The position numbers and the translations under genes were made by a program. From Heliorestis convoluta (GTDB taxonomy: Bacteria; Bacillota; Desulfitobacteriia; Heliobacteriales; Heliobacteriaceae), in NCBI RefSeq assembly GCF_009649955.1, contig NZ_CP045875.1:1407501-1471500 (forward strand): a DNA stretch of 64,000 nt. Direction: 5' to 3'. How positions within the stretch are numbered: the first letter of the stretch is position 1; each line of letters begins with the position of its first letter. Shown piece by piece: positions 7,929 through 54,330 of the stretch. The notes below the pieces were generated by a model. That model did not search any database. It was not told the DNA's origin and worked only from the letters and a program-made list of their open reading frames with translations.

Positions 7929-9519
7929 AGGAATGGTAGCCTTTGTTCTTCATGCCCATTTGCCTTTCGTACGGCATCCCGACCGTGAAGATTATTTGGA
8001 AGAACGTTGGCTTTTTGAAGCAATTACAGAATGCTATTTGCCTCTATTAAAAGTATTTGAGGGCTGGCATCGCGATGGCATACCAGCCCGTTTTACAATG
8101 ACGATGAGCCCTACCCTGATGACGATGCTTGCCGATCCCTTATTGCAAGAACGTTACAGCAAGCACCTAGATAACCTTACATTATTAGGTGAACTAGAAA
8201 TCGATCGAACGGAAGAAGACAGGGCTTATGCTCACCTAGCCCATCTTTATCGGCATCGTTTTTATGAAGCGCAACAAGTTTTTGAGCATCGTTATGGATG
8301 CGATCTTATCGGTGCTTTTCGAGGATTAATGCAAAAAGGCGTCATTGAAATCATCCCTTGTCCTGCTACACATGGCTATTTGCCTCTGATGCGTCTACAA
8401 CAAGAAGCTCAAGTTGCCCAAATCGCTGTAGCTGTTGATACCTACGAGCATTACTTCCACCAAAAGCCAAAAGGCATTTGGCTATCTGAGTGCGCCTATC
8501 ATGAAGGCTTAGAAAATCGTTTGGCACAATTCGGCATTCAATACTTTCTTACAGATGCACACGGTATCCTTTATGCCACGCCGAGACCACGCTATGGTCT
8601 CTATGCTCCCATCCAAACACCAGCTGGGGTAGCAGCCTTTGGTCGCGACCTGGAATCGTCACGGCAAGTCTGGAGCCGCGAAGAAGGATATCCAGGCGAT
8701 GGCGATTATCGAGAATACTATCGAGATATAGGATTCGATTTGGACTTTGAATATGTGCGCCCCTTTATTCATCCTGAAGGATTAAGACTCCACACAGGAT
8801 TTAAGTACCATCGTATTACAGAGCGAGATTCCGATCACAAAGAACCTTATGTACCCACTTGGGCTGAAGCAAAAACATCTCTCCATGCTGGCGACTTTCT
8901 CTTCAATCGAAGCAAACAAATCGAATACTTAAACCAAGTGATTCCCGATCGTGAACCGATTATCATCTGCCCTTACGATGCTGAACTTTTCGGGCATTGG
9001 TGGTACGAAGGTCCTCTCTTTCTCGATCAAGTTGGTCGCCAGGCGCAACAAGTCAGCCCTGGAATAGAATTTGTAACTCCTTCAGACTATCTGAAAAAGT
9101 ACCCTCGTATCCAACCATCAACGCCTTGCGAGTCCAGTTGGGGTGCCGATGGCTACCACGAAGTGTGGTTAGAAGATAGCAACCACTGGCTCTATCGCCA
9201 CCTTCACAAAGCGGCTGAAAGAATGATCGGCCTCTCCAAGGAGCGACCTCATACGGAAGGTCTGCAACGAAGAGCCCTCAATCAAATGGCTCGTGAGCTA
9301 CTTCTCGCCCAAAGCAGTGACTGGGCTTTTATCATGAAAACAAATACAACTGTCCAGTATGCTATCAATCGCTCCGTATACCATCTTAATAATTGCTCAT
9401 TGCTTTACGATATGGTTACCGGTGAAAAGCCTCTGCGTGAAGAACTGGTTAGCGAGCTAGAAGAAGTGAATCCAGTTTTTCCTCGCATGGATTATCGTTT
9501 GTATAGTGGACAAGTCTAG
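7915..9519 (+). CDS. GH57 family 1,4-alpha-glucan branching enzyme (DUF1957 type)
   Basis: Predicted to make alpha-1,6 branches in glycogen-like alpha-glucan. At 534 residues it has the size of the GH57/DUF1957 branching enzymes. Visible conserved regions are HAHLPFV near residue 13, WLSECAYHEG near 187 (nucleophile glutamate) and YDAELFGHWWYEG near 354 (acid/base aspartate), then the C-terminal helical DUF1957 domain. The start is the TTG at 7915 with GGGAGG only three bases away; the ATG at 7933 is possible. It follows the DUF4912 gene and faces a GT4 glucan synthase. Confidence 0.9.
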   Translation: MEIHKGMVAFVLHAHLPFVRHPDREDYLEERWLFEAITECYLPLLKVFEGWHRDGIPARFTMTMSPTLMTMLADPLLQERYSKHLDNLTLLGELEIDRTEEDRAYAHLAHLYRHRFYEAQQVFEHRYGCDLIGAFRGLMQKGVIEIIPCPATHGYLPLMRLQQEAQVAQIAVAVDTYEHYFHQKPKGIWLSECAYHEGLENRLAQFGIQYFLTDAHGILYATPRPRYGLYAPIQTPAGVAAFGRDLESSRQVWSREEGYPGDGDYREYYRDIGFDLDFEYVRPFIHPEGLRLHTGFKYHRITERDSDHKEPYVPTWAEAKTSLHAGDFLFNRSKQIEYLNQVIPDREPIIICPYDAELFGHWWYEGPLFLDQVGRQAQQVSPGIEFVTPSDYLKKYPRIQPSTPCESSWGADGYHEVWLEDSNHWLYRHLHKAAERMIGLSKERPHTEGLQRRALNQMARELLLAQSSDWAFIMKTNTTVQYAINRSVYHLNNCSLLYDMVTGEKPLREELVSELEEVNPVFPRMDYRLYSGQV

Positions 9520-9648: not shown

Positions 9649-9726
9649 TCTTTCACGCAATTTTCATCTTTAGTTGTGCCCGACCGGGCATGCCTGGTTA
9701 CTTCGAAAATAGTTACCCTGTGTTGG

Positions 9727-9839
9727 GGGCAGGCGTTATGAATTCCTTCCGAACGGACTCATCCCACGCCATGAGCGGCAGCAAGCTGCCGATGGCTGAG
9801 GTCTGAAGTCCTCTCTACAGGAATTCATAACGCCTGCCC
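9727..9839. repeat. Hairpin repeat A1
   Basis: Perfect 20-base arms (9727-9746 and 9820-9839; GGGCAGGCGTTATG... against its complement) enclose an inner structure: GGACT/AGTCC, GCCAT/ATGGC and an apical CGGCAG-CAAG-CTGCCG stem-loop. The interior is almost identical to that of A2 at 28197-28270 in inverse orientation. Confidence 0.85.
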
Positions 9840-9981
9840 TAGTTACATCTTGCTGGTTGAGACGAACCAATTGCCTATTGCAAATACAACAGCCAGTTGC
9901 GTATAGCCAGTTGCGTATACATAGCAGGAAGTTACGCCAAGTTATTCCAACGGCGGGAGTAACAATCAGCAAAAACCTTCT

Positions 9982-10096
9982 GGGCCAGGGCATCACGCTT
10001 TCCGCAGCGGGACTTGGGACCTCAGCTGTCGCCAGCTTGCTGGCGGTAACAGCGTGGGACCAGTCCAGAGCGGAGGAAAGCGTGATGCCCTGGCCC
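9982..10096. repeat. Hairpin repeat B1
   Basis: Perfect 22-base arms (9982-10003 and 10075-10096; core GCATCACGCTTTCC) enclose an interior with the apical stem CGCCAGC-TT-GCTGGCG. It shares its plan with the A hairpins when read in reverse complement, with paired substitutions in the stems. Confidence 0.85.
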
Positions 10097-27809: not shown

Positions 27810-27938
27810 TACAAAAACCTCCTCCGTTAATAACCCAACTGCCTACCAACAGCCTATTTACGAACCCCATGCCCATTCGGGTACAAACAAAGAGCAAAAT
27901 TAACTATCGCTAATTACCTTGGGGGTACTTTACCTAGG

Positions 27939-28052
27939 GGCCAGGTCATCACGCTTTCCTCCGCTCTGGACTGGTCCCACGCTGTTACCGCCAGCAAAGC
28001 TGGCGACAGCTGAGGTCCCAAGTCCCGCTACGGAAAGCGTGATGCCCAGTCC
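27939..28052. repeat. Hairpin repeat B2
   Basis: Arms 27939-27959 and 28032-28052 share the core ATCACGCTTTCC and its complement, with a few mismatches at their outer ends. The interior is nearly identical to the reverse complement of B1. Confidence 0.8.
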
Positions 28053-28175
28053 CAGAGGTTTTTTTGCTGATTGTTACTCCCCTTGGCATTGCTTTGTGTA
28101 AATTTCTGCTATATACGTAACTGCCTGTATTTTTCAATAAGCCATTTGGTTATTCACAGCCAGCAAGATGTACCT

Positions 28176-28291
28176 GGGTCAGGACTTATTCATTCCTGGA
28201 GAGAGGACTTCAGACCTCAGCCATCGGCAGCTTTGCTGCCGCTCATGGCGTGGGATGAGTCCGTTCGGAAGGAATGAATAAGTCCTGACCC
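28176..28291. repeat. Hairpin repeat A2
   Basis: Perfect 21-base arms (28176-28196 and 28271-28291; GGGTCAGGACTTATTC... with its complement). The interior 28197-28270 matches the reverse complement of the A1 interior with only a few differences, although the arms differ at many positions. Confidence 0.85.
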
Positions 28292-28314
28292 CACCACAGG
28301 GTATCTATTTCGTG

Positions 28315-40544: not shown

Positions 40545-40679
40545 CAGTGATTACACCTCTCTCTTAATCTACTAGTGTATAGGAGTAAGGTGTTACATGT
40601 GTAGAACTTTTCCTGTTAATCTTTATTCGTTATGAAGAATATATTTCCTGCTATTTTAGGGTGGCATGGGGGGTTAACA

Positions 40680-41006
<327 letters not shown>

Positions 41007-41363: not shown

Positions 41364-41438
41364 TGGAGCGGAAGACGAGATTCGAACTCGCGACCCTCGC
41401 CTTGGCAAGGCGATGCTCTACCACTGAGCCACTTCCGC
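41364..41438 (-). tRNA. tRNA-Gly (GCC)
   Basis: Cloverleaf with anticodon loop TTGCCAA, encoded CCA, last gene of cluster A. Nearly the same sequence lies at 54089-54163. Confidence 0.95.
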
Positions 41439-41441
41439 AAG

Positions 41442-41524
41442 TGGTGCGGTCGAGAGGACTTGAACCTCCACGGTTGCCCGCTGGAACCTAAATCCAGTGC
41501 GTCTGCCAATTCCGCCACGACCGC
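41442..41524 (-). tRNA. tRNA-Leu (TAG)
   Basis: Long variable arm, anticodon loop TTTAGGT, acceptor GCGGTCG/CGACCGC, encoded CCA. Not present in cluster B, which has Leu(CAG) at the matching place. Confidence 0.93.
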
Positions 41525-41546
41525 AAATAAAATTGTATAGTAAAGA

Positions 41547-41622
41547 TGGAGCCAGCGACAGGAATTGAACCCGCAACCTACTGATTACAAGTCAGTTGCT
41601 CTACCGATTGAGCTACGCTGGC
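41547..41622 (-). tRNA. tRNA-Thr (TGT)
   Basis: Anticodon loop TTGTAAT, acceptor GCCAGCG/CGCTGGC, encoded CCA. Confidence 0.95.
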
Positions 41623-41630
41623 AAACAAGA

Positions 41631-41721
41631 TGGCGGAGTGGGAGGGATTTGAACCCTCGCTGGACTTACGCCCACTAACGGTTTAGCAAACCGTCCTCTT
41701 CAGCCGCTTGAGTACCACTCC
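41631..41721 (-). tRNA. tRNA-Ser (GCT)
   Basis: Class II with long variable arm, anticodon loop TTGCTAA, acceptor GGAGTGG/CCACTCC, encoded CCA. Confidence 0.95.
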
Positions 41722-41728
41722 ATATAAA

Positions 41729-41805
41729 TGGCGGAGCTGACGGGATTCGAACCCGCGGTCTCCTGCGTGACAGGCAGGCATGTTAGGCCTCTACACCACA
41801 GCTCC
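41729..41805 (-). tRNA. tRNA-Asp (GTC)
   Basis: Anticodon loop CTGTCAC, acceptor GGAGCTG/CAGCTCC, discriminator G, encoded CCA. Confidence 0.95.
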
Positions 41806-41811
41806 ATTTTT

Positions 41812-41887
41812 TGGTGGGCGATGACAGGATCGAACTGCCGACCCCCTGCTTGTAAGGCAGGTGCTCTCCCAGCTGAGCTAATCGCCC
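41812..41887 (-). tRNA. tRNA-Val (TAC)
   Basis: Anticodon loop CTTACAA, acceptor GGGCGAT/ATCGCCC, encoded CCA. Confidence 0.95.
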
Positions 41888-41895
41888 TAAATAAT

Positions 41896-41971
41896 TGGTG
41901 ACCCGTAGGGGATTCGAACCCCTGTTACCGCCGTGAAAGGGCGGTGTCTTAGACCACTTGACCAACGGGCC
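41896..41971 (-). tRNA. tRNA-Glu (TTC)
   Basis: Anticodon loop CTTTCAC, acceptor GGCCCGT/ACGGGTC with one G-T pair, encoded CCA. Confidence 0.95.
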
Positions 41972-41976
41972 CTACA

Positions 41977-42052
41977 TGGTGATCCATGCTGGACTCGAAC
42001 CAGCGACACCCTGATTAAAAGTCAGGTGCTCTACCAACTGAGCTAATGGATC
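41977..42052 (-). tRNA. tRNA-Lys (TTT)
   Basis: Anticodon loop CTTTTAA, acceptor GATCCAT/ATGGATC, encoded CCA. Confidence 0.95.
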
Positions 42053-42057
42053 TTATA

Positions 42058-42132
42058 TGGCTGGGGAGGCTGGATTCGAACCAACGAATGGCGGAGTCAA
42101 AGTCCGCTGCCTTACCACTTGGCTACACCCCA
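42058..42132 (-). tRNA. tRNA-Gln (TTG)
   Basis: Anticodon loop TTTGACT, U1-A72 acceptor TGGGGTG typical of tRNA-Gln, one T-T mismatch in the stem shared with the cluster B copy, encoded CCA. Confidence 0.93.
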
Positions 42133-42137
42133 AAAAT

Positions 42138-42221
<84 letters not shown>

Positions 42222-42229
42222 AAGGAAGA

Positions 42230-42305
<76 letters not shown>

Positions 42306-42313
42306 ATACTAAA

Positions 42314-42390
42314 TGGTGGACGATGACGGAATCGAACCGCCGACCCCTTGCATGTCAAGCAAGTACTCTAACCAGCTGAGCTAATCGTCC
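42314..42390 (-). tRNA. tRNA-Val (GAC)
   Basis: Anticodon loop TTGACAT, acceptor GGACGAT/ATCGTCC, encoded CCA. Confidence 0.93.
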
Positions 42391-42400
42391 AGTGTTTTTT

Positions 42401-42477
42401 TGGTAGCGGTGGTAGGATTTGAACCTACGACCCTACGGGTATGAACCGTATGCTCTGACCAACTGAGCTACACCGCC
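42401..42477 (-). tRNA. tRNA-Met (CAT), elongator type
   Basis: Anticodon loop TTCATAC, acceptor GGCGGTG with ACCA end. The sequence resembles elongator Met; a lysidine-modified Ile(CAT) cannot be fully excluded. Confidence 0.88.
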
Positions 42478-42485
42478 AAATACCG

Positions 42486-42572
42486 TGGTGCCGAAGGCCG
42501 GGGTCGAACCGGCACGAAGTTTCCCTCACTGGTTTTTGAGACCAGCGCGTCTGCCAATTCCGCCACTTCGGC
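42486..42572 (-). tRNA. tRNA-Leu (CAA)
   Basis: Long variable arm, anticodon loop CTCAAAA, anticodon stem CTGGT/ACCAG intact here, acceptor GCCGAAG/CTTCGGC, encoded CCA. Confidence 0.95.
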
Positions 42573-42597
42573 ATATTACATATAGCTGTTATATAAT

Positions 42598-42672
<75 letters not shown>

Positions 42673-42673
42673 A

Positions 42674-42750
42674 TGGGGTGGCTGATGGGACTTGAACCCA
42701 CGAGTGCCGGAGCCACAATCCGGTGCGTTAACCACTTCGCCACAACCACC
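42674..42750 (-). tRNA. tRNA-His (GTG)
   Basis: Anticodon loop TTGTGGC, extra G-1 opposite discriminator C as expected for His, encoded CCA. Confidence 0.95.
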
Positions 42751-42783
42751 ATAATATAATTTCTTAGAACTCTAACTTTAAAG

Positions 42784-42860
<77 letters not shown>

Positions 42861-42863
42861 CTA

Positions 42864-42937
42864 TGGAGCGGGTGATGGGAATCGAACCCACGTAGCTAGC
42901 TTGGAAGGCTAGAGCTTTACCATTAAGCTACACCCGC
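42864..42937 (-). tRNA. tRNA-Gly (TCC)
   Basis: Anticodon loop CTTCCAA, acceptor GCGGGTG/CACCCGC, encoded CCA. Confidence 0.95.
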
Positions 42938-42951
42938 ATTTTTAAGAGATA

Positions 42952-43028
42952 TGGTCGGGGTGACACGACTTGAACGTGCGGCCTCCTGCTCCCAAGGCAG
43001 GCGCTCCACCAAACTGAGCTACACCCCG
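42952..43028 (-). tRNA. tRNA-Pro (TGG)
   Basis: Anticodon loop CTTGGGA, acceptor CGGGGTG/CACCCCG, encoded CCA. Confidence 0.93.
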
Positions 43029-43037
43029 ATTCTTCTA

Positions 43038-43129
43038 TGGCGGAGAAAGAGGGATTCGAACCCTCGAGACGGTTTTGCCGCCTACACGATTTCCAATCGT
43101 GCGCCTTCGACCAACTCGGCCATCTCTCC
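43038..43129 (-). tRNA. tRNA-Ser (GGA)
   Basis: Class II, anticodon loop TTGGAAA, acceptor GGAGAGA paired with TTTCTCC through one G-T wobble; cluster B has the Watson-Crick form. Confidence 0.95.
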
Positions 43130-43137
43130 TGATAAAT

Positions 43138-43213
43138 TGGTTGCGGGGACAGGACTTGAACCTGTGACCTTCGGGTTATGAGCCCGACGAGCTGCCAGCT
43201 GCTCCACCCCGCG
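43138..43213 (-). tRNA. tRNA-fMet (CAT), initiator
   Basis: Anticodon loop CTCATAA, stem GGG/CCC before the loop, and a C1-A72 mismatch (CGCGGGG/CCCCGCA), the initiator marks. Confidence 0.95.
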
Positions 43214-43219
43214 TCATTA

Positions 43220-43295
43220 TGGCTCCTCGAGTAGGACTCGAACCTACAACCTACCGGTTAACAGCCGGTTGCTCTACCGATTGAGCTATCGAGGA
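43220..43295 (-). tRNA. tRNA-Asn (GTT)
   Basis: Anticodon loop CTGTTAA, acceptor TCCTCGA/TCGAGGA, encoded CCA. First gene of cluster A after the 23S fragment. Confidence 0.95.
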
Positions 43296-43374: not shown

Positions 43375-43554
<180 letters not shown>

Positions 43555-43555
<1 letters not shown>

Positions 43556-43670
43556 CTTCCCACTACGTAAGTAGGTAAGACCCCAGGAAGATGACCTGGT
43601 TGATCGGCTCGAGATGGAAGCGCTGTGAGGCGTGTAGTTGACGAGTACGAATCGGTCGAGGACTTAACCT
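43555..43670 (+). rRNA. 23S rRNA, 3' fragment (about 115 nt), plus strand
   Basis: Begins at ACTTCCCACTACGTAAGTAGG and ends GAGGACTTAACCT, a second 23S 3' end pointing away from the minus-strand fragment. A terminator and then adhE follow it; no 5S is present. Confidence 0.9.
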
Positions 43671-43786
43671 ACTCTATTACATCGCAAATTGCTTGGGGAT
43701 TAAACCCCGCGGAAACTCAGAAACAATTCTGACAATTCGCGGTTACGTTAAAACCCTTCTCTGTGTAGCTTTCAAGGAATAAGTGA

Positions 43787-51751: not shown

Positions 51752-51847
51752 TTTGGAGAGTTTGATCCTGGCTCAGGACGAACGCTGGCGGCATGCCTAA
51801 CACATGCAAGTCGAACGGAGCTTCAAAGTAGCTTGCTACTTTGTGCA
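51752..51847 (+). rRNA. 16S rRNA, 5' fragment (about 95 nt) fused to 23S
   Basis: GGAGAGTTTGATCCTGGCTC to helix 6 (AGTAGCTTGCTACTTTGTG) and then directly 23S sequence. The junction sits at AGCG, a short overlap shared by both RNAs. Helix 6 differs in sequence from the fragment at 40680-41006. Confidence 0.9.
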
Positions 51848-52033
<186 letters not shown>

Positions 52034-52142: not shown

Positions 52143-52218
52143 TCCTCGATAGCTCAATCGGTAGAGCAACCGGCTGTTAACCGGTAGGTTGTAGGTTCGA
52201 GTCCTACTCGAGGAGCCA
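52143..52218 (+). tRNA. tRNA-Asn (GTT)
   Basis: First gene of cluster B; anticodon loop CTGTTAA; same as 43220-43295. Confidence 0.95.
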
Positions 52219-52224
52219 TAATGA

Positions 52225-52300
52225 CGCGGGGTGGAGCAGCTGGCAGCTCGTCGGGCTCATAACCCGAAGGTCACAGGTTCAAGTCCTGTCCCCGCAACCA
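52225..52300 (+). tRNA. tRNA-fMet (CAT), initiator
   Basis: C1-A72 mismatch, loop CTCATAA, GGG/CCC stem; encoded CCA. Confidence 0.95.
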
Positions 52301-52308
52301 ATTTATCA

Positions 52309-52400
52309 GGAGAGATGGCCGAGTTGGTCGAAGGCGCACGATTGGAAATCGTGTAGGCGGCAAAACCGTCTCGAGGGTTCGAATCCCTCTCTCTCCGCCA
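52309..52400 (+). tRNA. tRNA-Ser (GGA)
   Basis: Class II, loop TTGGAAA; acceptor fully paired GGAGAGA/TCTCTCC. Confidence 0.95.
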
Positions 52401-52409
52401 TAGAAGAAT

Positions 52410-52486
52410 CGGGGTGTAGCTCAGTTTGGTGGAGCGCCTGCCTTGGGAGCAGGAGGCCGCACGTTCAAGTCGTGTCACCCCGACCA
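52410..52486 (+). tRNA. tRNA-Pro (TGG)
   Basis: Loop CTTGGGA, acceptor CGGGGTG/CACCCCG, encoded CCA. Confidence 0.93.
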
Positions 52487-52500
52487 TTTTTCTTAAAAAT

Positions 52501-52574
52501 GCGGGTGTAGCTTAATGGTAAAGCTCTAGCCTTCCAAGCTAGCTACGTGGGTTCGATTCCCATCACCCGCTCCA
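52501..52574 (+). tRNA. tRNA-Gly (TCC)
   Basis: Loop CTTCCAA, acceptor GCGGGTG/CACCCGC, encoded CCA. Confidence 0.95.
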
Positions 52575-52577
52575 TAG

Positions 52578-52654
<77 letters not shown>

Positions 52655-52688
52655 CTTTTCAGTTGGCGTTCTAAAGAAAATATATTAT

Positions 52689-52765
52689 GGTGGTTGTGGC
52701 GAAGTGGTTAACGCACCGGATTGTGGCTCCGGCACTCGTGGGTTCAAGTCCCATCAGCCACCCCA
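52689..52765 (+). tRNA. tRNA-His (GTG)
   Basis: Loop TTGTGGC with G-1 and discriminator C; encoded CCA. Confidence 0.95.
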
Positions 52766-52766
52766 T

Positions 52767-52841
<75 letters not shown>

Positions 52842-52866
52842 ATTATATAACAGTTATATGTAATAT

Positions 52867-52953
52867 GCCGAAGTGGCGGAATTGGCAGACGCGCTGGTCT
52901 CAAAAACCTGTGAGGGAAACTTCGTGCCGGTTCGACCCCGGCCTTCGGCACCA
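52867..52953 (+). tRNA. tRNA-Leu (CAA)
   Basis: Long variable arm, loop CTCAAAA. The anticodon stem reads CTGGT/ACCTG, so one base pair is broken relative to cluster A. Confidence 0.92.
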
Positions 52954-52961
52954 CAGTATTT

Positions 52962-53038
52962 GGCGGTGTAGCTCAGTTGGTCAGAGCATACGGTTCATAC
53001 CCGTAGGGTCGTAGGTTCAAATCCTACCACCGCTACCA
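52962..53038 (+). tRNA. tRNA-Met (CAT), elongator type
   Basis: Loop TTCATAC, acceptor GGCGGTG, ACCA end; as at 42401-42477. Confidence 0.88.
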
Positions 53039-53046
53039 AAAACACT

Positions 53047-53123
53047 GGACGATTAGCTCAGCTGGTTAGAGTACTTGCTTGACATGCAAGGGGTCGGCGG
53101 TTCGATTCCGTCATCGTCCACCA
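53047..53123 (+). tRNA. tRNA-Val (GAC)
   Basis: Loop TTGACAT, acceptor GGACGAT/ATCGTCC, encoded CCA. Confidence 0.93.
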
Positions 53124-53131
53124 TTTAGTAT

Positions 53132-53207
<76 letters not shown>

Positions 53208-53215
53208 TCTTCCCT

Positions 53216-53299
<84 letters not shown>

Positions 53300-53304
53300 T
53301 TTTT

Positions 53305-53379
53305 TGGGGTGTAGCCAAGTGGTAAGGCAGCGGACTTTGACTCCGCCATTCGTTGGTTCGAATCCAGCCTCCCCAGCCA
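53305..53379 (+). tRNA. tRNA-Gln (TTG)
   Basis: Loop TTTGACT, U1-A72 acceptor, encoded CCA. Confidence 0.93.
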
Positions 53380-53384
53380 TATAA

Positions 53385-53460
53385 GATCCATTAGCTCAGT
53401 TGGTAGAGCACCTGACTTTTAATCAGGGTGTCGCTGGTTCGAGTCCAGCATGGATCACCA
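53385..53460 (+). tRNA. tRNA-Lys (TTT)
   Basis: Loop CTTTTAA, acceptor GATCCAT/ATGGATC, encoded CCA. Confidence 0.95.
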
Positions 53461-53465
53461 TGTAG

Positions 53466-53541
53466 GGCCCGTTGGTCAAGTGGTCTAAGACACCGCCCTT
53501 TCACGGCGGTAACAGGGGTTCGAATCCCCTACGGGTCACCA
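53466..53541 (+). tRNA. tRNA-Glu (TTC)
   Basis: Loop CTTTCAC, acceptor GGCCCGT/ACGGGTC, encoded CCA. Confidence 0.95.
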
Positions 53542-53548
53542 AAATATT

Positions 53549-53624
53549 GGGCGATTAGCTCAGCTGGGAGAGCACCTGCCTTACAAGCAGGGGGTCGGCA
53601 GTTCGATCCTGTCATCGCCCACCA
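53549..53624 (+). tRNA. tRNA-Val (TAC)
   Basis: Loop CTTACAA, acceptor GGGCGAT/ATCGCCC, encoded CCA. Confidence 0.95.
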
Positions 53625-53631
53625 AAAAAAT

Positions 53632-53708
53632 GGAGCTGTGGTGTAGAGGCCTAACATGCCTGCCTGTCACGCAGGAGACCGCGGGTTCGAATCCCGTCAG
53701 CTCCGCCA
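53632..53708 (+). tRNA. tRNA-Asp (GTC)
   Basis: Loop CTGTCAC, acceptor GGAGCTG/CAGCTCC, encoded CCA. Confidence 0.95.
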
Positions 53709-53715
53709 TTTATAT

Positions 53716-53806
53716 GGAGTGGTACTCAAGCGGCTGAAGAGGACGGTTTGCTAAACCGTTAGTGGGCGTAAGTCCAGCGAGGGTTCAAATCCCTCCCACT
53801 CCGCCA
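53716..53806 (+). tRNA. tRNA-Ser (GCT)
   Basis: Class II, loop TTGCTAA, acceptor GGAGTGG/CCACTCC, encoded CCA. Confidence 0.95.
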
Positions 53807-53814
53807 CGACGTTT

Positions 53815-53890
<76 letters not shown>

Positions 53891-53899
53891 CTTTTCTTA

Positions 53900-53976
53900 C
53901 GGGGCGTAGCTCAGCTTGGTAGAGCGCTACCTTGGGGTGGTAGAGGTCGCACGTTCAAGTCGTGTCGCTCCGACCA
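53900..53976 (+). tRNA. tRNA-Pro (GGG)
   Basis: Anticodon stem CTACC/GGTAG with loop TTGGGGT; acceptor CGGGGCG/CGCTCCG with one wobble. Only in cluster B. Confidence 0.92.
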
Positions 53977-53997
53977 TTCAAAAAACCCCAAACACTT

Positions 53998-54084
53998 GCG
54001 GTCGTGGCGGAATTGGCAGACGCGCTAGATTCAGGTTCTAGTGGTCGCAAGGCTGTGGAGGTTCAAGTCCTCTCGACCGCACCA
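53998..54084 (+). tRNA. tRNA-Leu (CAG)
   Basis: Long variable arm, stem CTAGA/TCTAG with loop TTCAGGT, acceptor GCGGTCG/CGACCGC. Only in cluster B. Confidence 0.93.
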
Positions 54085-54088
54085 TTAA

Positions 54089-54163
54089 GCGGAAGTGGCT
54101 CAGTGGTAGAGCATCGCCTTGCCAAGGCGAGGGTCGCGAGTTCGAATCTCGTCTTCCGCTCCA
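54089..54163 (+). tRNA. tRNA-Gly (GCC)
   Basis: Loop TTGCCAA, acceptor GCGGAAG/CTTCCGC, encoded CCA; matches 41364-41438. Confidence 0.95.
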
Positions 54164-54166
54164 TTC

Positions 54167-54241
54167 GCGCCCGTAGCTCAGTGGATAGAGCACTGGTCTC
54201 CGGAACCAGGTGCGCAAGTTCGATTCTTGCCGGGCGCACCA
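54167..54241 (+). tRNA. tRNA-Arg (CCG)
   Basis: Stem CTGGT/ACCAG with loop CTCCGGA, acceptor GCGCCCG/CGGGCGC, encoded CCA. Only in cluster B. Confidence 0.94.
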
Positions 54242-54254
54242 TTTGTTGTGATAT

Positions 54255-54330
54255 AGGGGAGTAGCTCAACTGGCAGAGCGGCGGTCTCCAAAACCGTAGG
54301 TTGCGGGTTCAAGTCCTGTCTCCCCTGCCA
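54255..54330 (+). tRNA. tRNA-Trp (CCA)
   Basis: Loop CTCCAAA, acceptor AGGGGAG/CTCCCCT, encoded CCA. Last tRNA of cluster B; an integrase gene begins 180 bases on. Confidence 0.95.

Follow-up and report, generated by a model that had tools for sequence, protein, structure and literature searches.

A pair of inverted hairpins between convergent reading frames

The stretch of DNA analysed here (the window; 64,000 nucleotides, positions 1,407,501 to 1,471,500 of contig NZ_CP045875.1) belongs to a Heliorestis convoluta genome made up of a single contig of 3,218,981 bp; the published genome of H. convoluta HH-T has 3,218,981 bp (PMC7143216). Two hairpins of opposite sense, termed A and B, lie between convergent reading frames that end at positions 9519 (+) and 10185 (-). 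Their inverted-repeat arms, 9727-9759/9807-9839 for A and 9982-10008/10070-10096 for B, place both hairpins exactly where a preliminary description of this DNA had put them, and a second pair (27936-28293), set between two co-directional frames, brings the number of hairpins in the window to the four counted there. The features of both pairs, in window coordinates, are:

9660-9712 (+), approximate limits: 54-bp flanking module (TTTTCATC..TTGTGCCCGACCGGGCATG..ACTTCGAAAATAG), which adjoins many doublets and stands elsewhere in tandem
9727-9839 (+): hairpin A, whole with outer arms (inverted repeat; fold z -9.65; model match of 124.5 bits at 9724-9846)
9755-9811 (+): sequence-fixed core of hairpin A (GGACTCATCCCACGC...GCTGAGGTCTGAAGTCC), kept across copies (sequence reading)
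9840-9981 (no strand): variable A-B linker with small inverted repeats of its own (doublet alignment)
9982-10096 (-): hairpin B, whole, in opposite sense to A (inverted repeat; fold; 117-bit model match)
10010-10066 (-): sequence-fixed core of hairpin B (sequence reading; copy comparison)
27936-28059 (+): hairpin B of the second doublet (110.3-bit model match)
28170-28293 (-): hairpin A of the second doublet, with a different outer-arm sequence (GACTTATTCA) that keeps its self-complementarity (136.2-bit model match)

Copy number and distribution of the family

A genome-wide count in H. convoluta gave 137 occurrences of the core pattern TCCCACGC-N15-40-GCTGAGGT and none of the reversed control pattern. 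A covariance model (R2) that includes the outer stem identified 149 hairpins here; the sister species H. acidaminivorans has 15, and two genomes belonging to a different heliobacterial genus have five each, so that the search of the genome and its relatives proposed in the preliminary description spreads the family over four heliobacterial genomes and clearly contradicts the possibility, raised there too, that only the first copies exist. The covariance-model search found the hairpin in none of five other heliobacteria and, with stricter filters, in none of 74 other genomes of the class. A viral or plasmid origin was rejected, there being no match in viral contigs (searched with the exact core pattern), phages or plasmids. 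The repeated unit is about 115 nt in size, and the 149 H. convoluta copies have unrelated flanks.

The hairpins of H. acidaminivorans appear, as far as seen, to be solitary. Nine of the ten examined are clear of reading frames, and the tenth has lost its 3' arm and overlaps a frame. Their cores are 87% identical and their arms about 43%; although the outer arms differ from copy to copy, the right arm of the same copy is the best partner of the left arm in all nine cases tested (mean of -35.1 kcal/mol for own against -17.4 kcal/mol for swapped arms).

Fold, core and stem covariation

Both hairpins tested fold with z values of -8 to -10 relative to dinucleotide shuffles on either strand and, since both strands fold well, folding alone does not tell which of them matters. 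The core can be written as GGACT..TCCCACGC-stem-loop-stem-GCTGAGGTC..AAGTCC, within which the TCCCAC and TGAGGT blocks are fixed though complementary only in part; the fixed blocks between covarying stems reported initially are partly non-complementary internal loops that stay unchanged across copies. The junctions between the core and the outer stem are largely fixed as well, and the outer stem beyond the core, about 20 bp long, is free to vary.

Covariation statistics, also proposed at the outset, were obtained from a plain MAFFT alignment, made without structure reference, of 25 diverse copies. In this set 88% of pair cells hold standard pairs as against 77% after shuffling, and the covariation score of 0.304 (0.137 shuffled) was reached by none of 500 shuffles, pairing and covariation both lying above all of them; sliding the partners by one to three columns lowers pairing to 34-46%. 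In a structure-fitted alignment of 38 copies, which leans toward the model, 93% of cells are paired and 323 cells are double-changed compared with 98 after shuffling. Compensatory changes had been announced for every stem; the stems do covary, but several pairs of the core (the CCCA/GC block) are invariant or nearly so, and some multi-copy variants are changed on one side of the apical stem with pairing broken there, so that the apical part tolerates change. The earlier proposal of a structure under selection is supported by the covarying stems, the fixed loops and the preference of arms for their own partner; some component of the cell appears to recognise the folded shape.

Private substitutions affect 16 of 7467 site-copies in the core and 57 of about 6985 in the linker, a roughly fourfold lower frequency in the core; the copies compared were picked by core similarity, and the resulting bias runs in the same direction as the result. 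With so few private changes the core seems to be either constrained in place or homogenised by conversion. Correction of imperfect palindromes by template switching is an established property, and template switching at a long DNA hairpin could keep its arms complementary with no selection on structure, in keeping with outer arms that are near-perfect palindromes and the most variable part of the unit. Such copying would, however, erase the partly non-complementary internal loops, yet these are the most conserved, and it leaves unexplained both the covarying inner stems between fixed blocks and the scarcity of private substitutions in the core; we consider it highly improbable as the source of the pattern.

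Doublets and mosaic organisation in H. convoluta

The census of doublets covers the matches listed, 142 of 149, of which 72 are A hairpins. An inverted B hairpin about 240 bp away partners 58 of the 72 listed A hairpins, always in the arrangement A(+) then B(-) (58/58) and with a start-to-start distance of 230-254 bp in all but one of the 58; among the same matches 14 A and 12 B hairpins are solitary. Some solitary hairpins are deletion products, among them a B/A chimera (locus L154) and half-deleted B hairpins (L058, L097). A and B are 71% complementary across 80 nt, and no long conserved frame was seen in the doublet. Given this invariant arrangement of A and B, the pair seems to be the unit of spread, in the manner of BIMEs and REPINs. 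The 54-bp module flanks many doublets and occurs in tandem arrays too, doublets and modules together making up a BIME-like mosaic.

Several further repeats were noted around the doublets. The 54-bp module (9660-9712 of the window; C1:472498, 809474 and 2749821) has a small hairpin of its own (GTGCCC..GGGCA), and its core has 35 exact matches in the genome, mostly beside doublets and sometimes in tandem or alone. Another repeat, CACGGGGACGTTTCGTTTGGCA, adjoins many doublets (L010, L014, L058, L072 and other loci), and a 769-bp tandem duplication at L109/L111 (C1:3135120-3136253) contains the same doublet twice.

Neighbouring frames are convergent in 13 cases, divergent in four and co-directional in 11, which is the pattern of repeats that avoid promoters, and copies lie in either orientation relative to neighbouring genes. 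The excess of convergent neighbours, together with the T-run that follows many B hairpins and many of those of H. acidaminivorans, would suit bidirectional transcription terminators multiplied through recombination. Against this, the T-run begins several bases past the stem and none follows A, the terminator scan was negative on both hairpins, leaving an intrinsic terminator unsupported, and termination has no need of an elaborate fixed core; we give this explanation scarcely any credence.

Relation to known repeat families

No Rfam family matches the hairpins: the comparison that had been suggested gave only sub-threshold eukaryotic models (best E 0.037), and a known RNA family was rejected with nothing at or above any gathering threshold. 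The preliminary statement that no named family has this core is correct as regards Rfam 15, but in their organisation the repeats belong to a known kind (BIME/REPIN/MITE). Literature searches turned up no account of them in heliobacteria, and a keyword search of the main text of the H. convoluta genome paper returned only transposase counts and one CRISPR.

REPINs and BIMEs are REP doublets tied to RAYT/TnpA_REP (PMC3116915, PMC8266576). The heliobacterial repeats resemble them in their high copy number, in being mostly intergenic, in consisting of imperfect palindromes with required unpaired positions, in the two related types forming inverted pairs around a linker (the A+/B- doublets that include 58 of the 72 listed A hairpins), in the mosaic built with further modules and in the presence of singlets beside doublets. 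However, REP units measure 20-40 nt and carry a GTAG or CGTC tag, whereas the heliobacterial unit measures about 115 nt and, in the printed copies inspected by eye, shows neither tag at a fixed position next to the hairpin. H. acidaminivorans is the one genome in which the REP transposase family exceeds its cut-off; in H. convoluta it stays below, and the H. acidaminivorans copy examined adjoins a different repeat. A RAYT-driven REP was rejected on this basis. In the loci examined no cognate RAYT/TnpA_REP gene is flanked by the hairpin, the GGGACGGTTC repeat flanking the gene instead. At locus L176 of H. acidaminivorans a gene for a REP-type tyrosine transposase lies between CACAGAGGGACGGTTCTTCTGTGCAC repeats and represents a separate REP system.

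Prokaryotic MITEs include ERIC, the Correia elements (NEMIS/CREE) and the bcr repeats of B. cereus; some such repeats are RNase substrates or parts of UTRs, and two bcr families have conserved secondary structures and were proposed as RNA elements (PMC10969869, PMC3446304). Like ERIC, Correia and bcr repeats, the heliobacterial hairpins are dispersed, non-coding, mostly intergenic and strongly folding, and A and B provide the non-coding terminal inverted repeats of a MITE (71% over 80 nt). MITEs, however, are characterised by terminal inverted repeats plus a target-site duplication, whereas each end of the heliobacterial doublet is a complete hairpin with a covarying stem. The adjoining 54-bp module obscures where the doublets end, and the search for target-site duplications established neither such a duplication nor a clean empty site. 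In a survey covering part of the IS families, all places where the left-end sequence of the doublet was found are at doublets or 54-bp modules, and no gene-bearing element with doublet ends was seen.

The subterminal hairpins of IS200/IS605 elements are recognised as folded single-stranded DNA, and in this they serve as a model for the mechanism proposed below. The sole such element found in H. convoluta, that with the single Y1 transposase (L031), has unrelated ends and lacks the hairpin, in contrast to this likeness; an IS200/IS605 palindrome or derivative was rejected.

Hairpins beside 23S rRNA genes

In the two species of the second genus nine of the ten hairpins directly follow the 3' end of a 23S rRNA, one of them a shortened 23S, and the tenth is found at a locus corresponding to one of the other nine. 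These hairpins stand upstream of CTCTGTGTAGTTTTC, which probably forms the 3' side of the stem used in 23S processing, and transcription of these 23S-linked copies is very probable. The neighbouring tRNAs and sequence indicate that the two species have the hairpin in the same five rRNA operons, a stable residence that looks vertical rather than mobile; most other rRNA operons examined have no hairpin. The comparison of own with swapped arms is weaker in this genus (own best in 4/9), the arms being alike between copies. The 23S trailers of H. acidaminivorans (L119, L127) vary: some have an insert in the form of another small hairpin and others lack one, so that the 23S trailer seems to accept inserts repeatedly.

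The position of these copies, nine after 23S ends and the tenth at a matching locus, speaks for a functional RNA element, ancestral in the 23S rRNA trailer and copied later to mRNA 3' ends, whose hairpin would act in transcripts either in processing by RNase III or another enzyme or as a stabiliser of mRNA 3' ends. Fixed loops with covarying stems are, besides, the classical RNA pattern, and a core constrained in place would be expected of such an element. On the other hand, either strand is used relative to neighbouring genes, a 3'-end element has no need of a fixed inverted doublet, and the hairpin is missing from most of the rRNA operons examined. An RNA made from one strand should also clearly favour G.U, yet the changes are nearly balanced: single-sided changes among the H. 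convoluta copies lead to G.T in 66 cases and to A.C in 54, and in the diverse set the 37 G.T against 22 A.C cells, an excess in the direction favoured by the fitted alignment, reduce to 13 against 15 distinct position classes. This balance argues weakly against an RNA acting from one strand. With copies lying in either orientation as well, a strand-specific regulatory RNA is less likely than a mobile repeat, and we regard the functional RNA element as unlikely.

A proposed mobile repeat read as a folded strand

The pairwise organisation, the dispersal in both orientations and the lack of a clear wobble bias favour a mobile DNA repeat that is read as a folded strand. Our preferred reading, with a probability of roughly 0.62, is that the hairpins are non-autonomous, REPIN/BIME-like mobile repeats of a new family limited to part of the Heliobacteriaceae, the folded strand being recognised by a protein. 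Several results speak against this reading: neither the REP transposase family nor the IS200/IS605-type element yielded a mobilising enzyme, no gene-bearing element shares the doublet ends in the survey made, and the residence in five rRNA operons of two species looks vertical. The basic unit would be a single hairpin of about 115 nt, with a sequence-fixed core, partly non-complementary internal loops and a long outer stem for which pairing would be the only requirement. The H. convoluta doublet, in which diverged A and B hairpins are placed head-to-head about 240 bp apart, would have spread to about 60 pairs plus remnants. We infer that an enzyme supplied in trans would bind the fixed internal loops of the folded single strand, which could be exposed in replication or extruded as a cruciform, and that the inverted hairpin pair would mark the ends of the element, as REPINs are thought to use the REP transposase. 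Insertion would occur mostly between genes, and at the transcript level the hairpins may then have a role too, for instance as sites for RNase III.

The most economical account is that of a REPIN-like non-autonomous repeat, one that would work like a REPIN but departs from it in two features, the unit size and tag and the linked RAYT. A more specific version, which we put forward tentatively and hold to be rather doubtful, is a paired-hairpin element moved by a non-RAYT enzyme that reads the fixed internal loops of a long folded strand, with any pairing sequence sufficing for the outer stems and the copies beside 23S perhaps serving as an rRNA processing signal.

Our verdict is that of a lineage-restricted variant of interspersed structured repeats with unusually clean covariation. 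REPIN-like biology would thereby be extended to a deep-branching photosynthetic Gram-positive family, with hairpins about three times longer than those of REPINs and without the usual transposase. The strong covariation offers a direct handle on what the recogniser reads and, with a dispersed form in one genus and an rRNA-operon form in another, the family would suit the study of selfish repeats turned into functional RNA parts.

Rearranged rRNA pieces and tRNA arrays in the window

Rearranged rRNA pieces were also observed in the window (51754-52023 (+), 43385-43700 and 40582-41001 (-)), comprising a 16S start fused to a 23S end, head-to-head 23S ends and a shortened 16S. Each piece adjoins a long tRNA array, and they may be pseudo-operons or reflect an assembly problem. 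Some 20 tRNA genes make up each of two nearly identical arrays, which lie in opposite orientation at 41367-43295 (-) and 52143-54327 (+).
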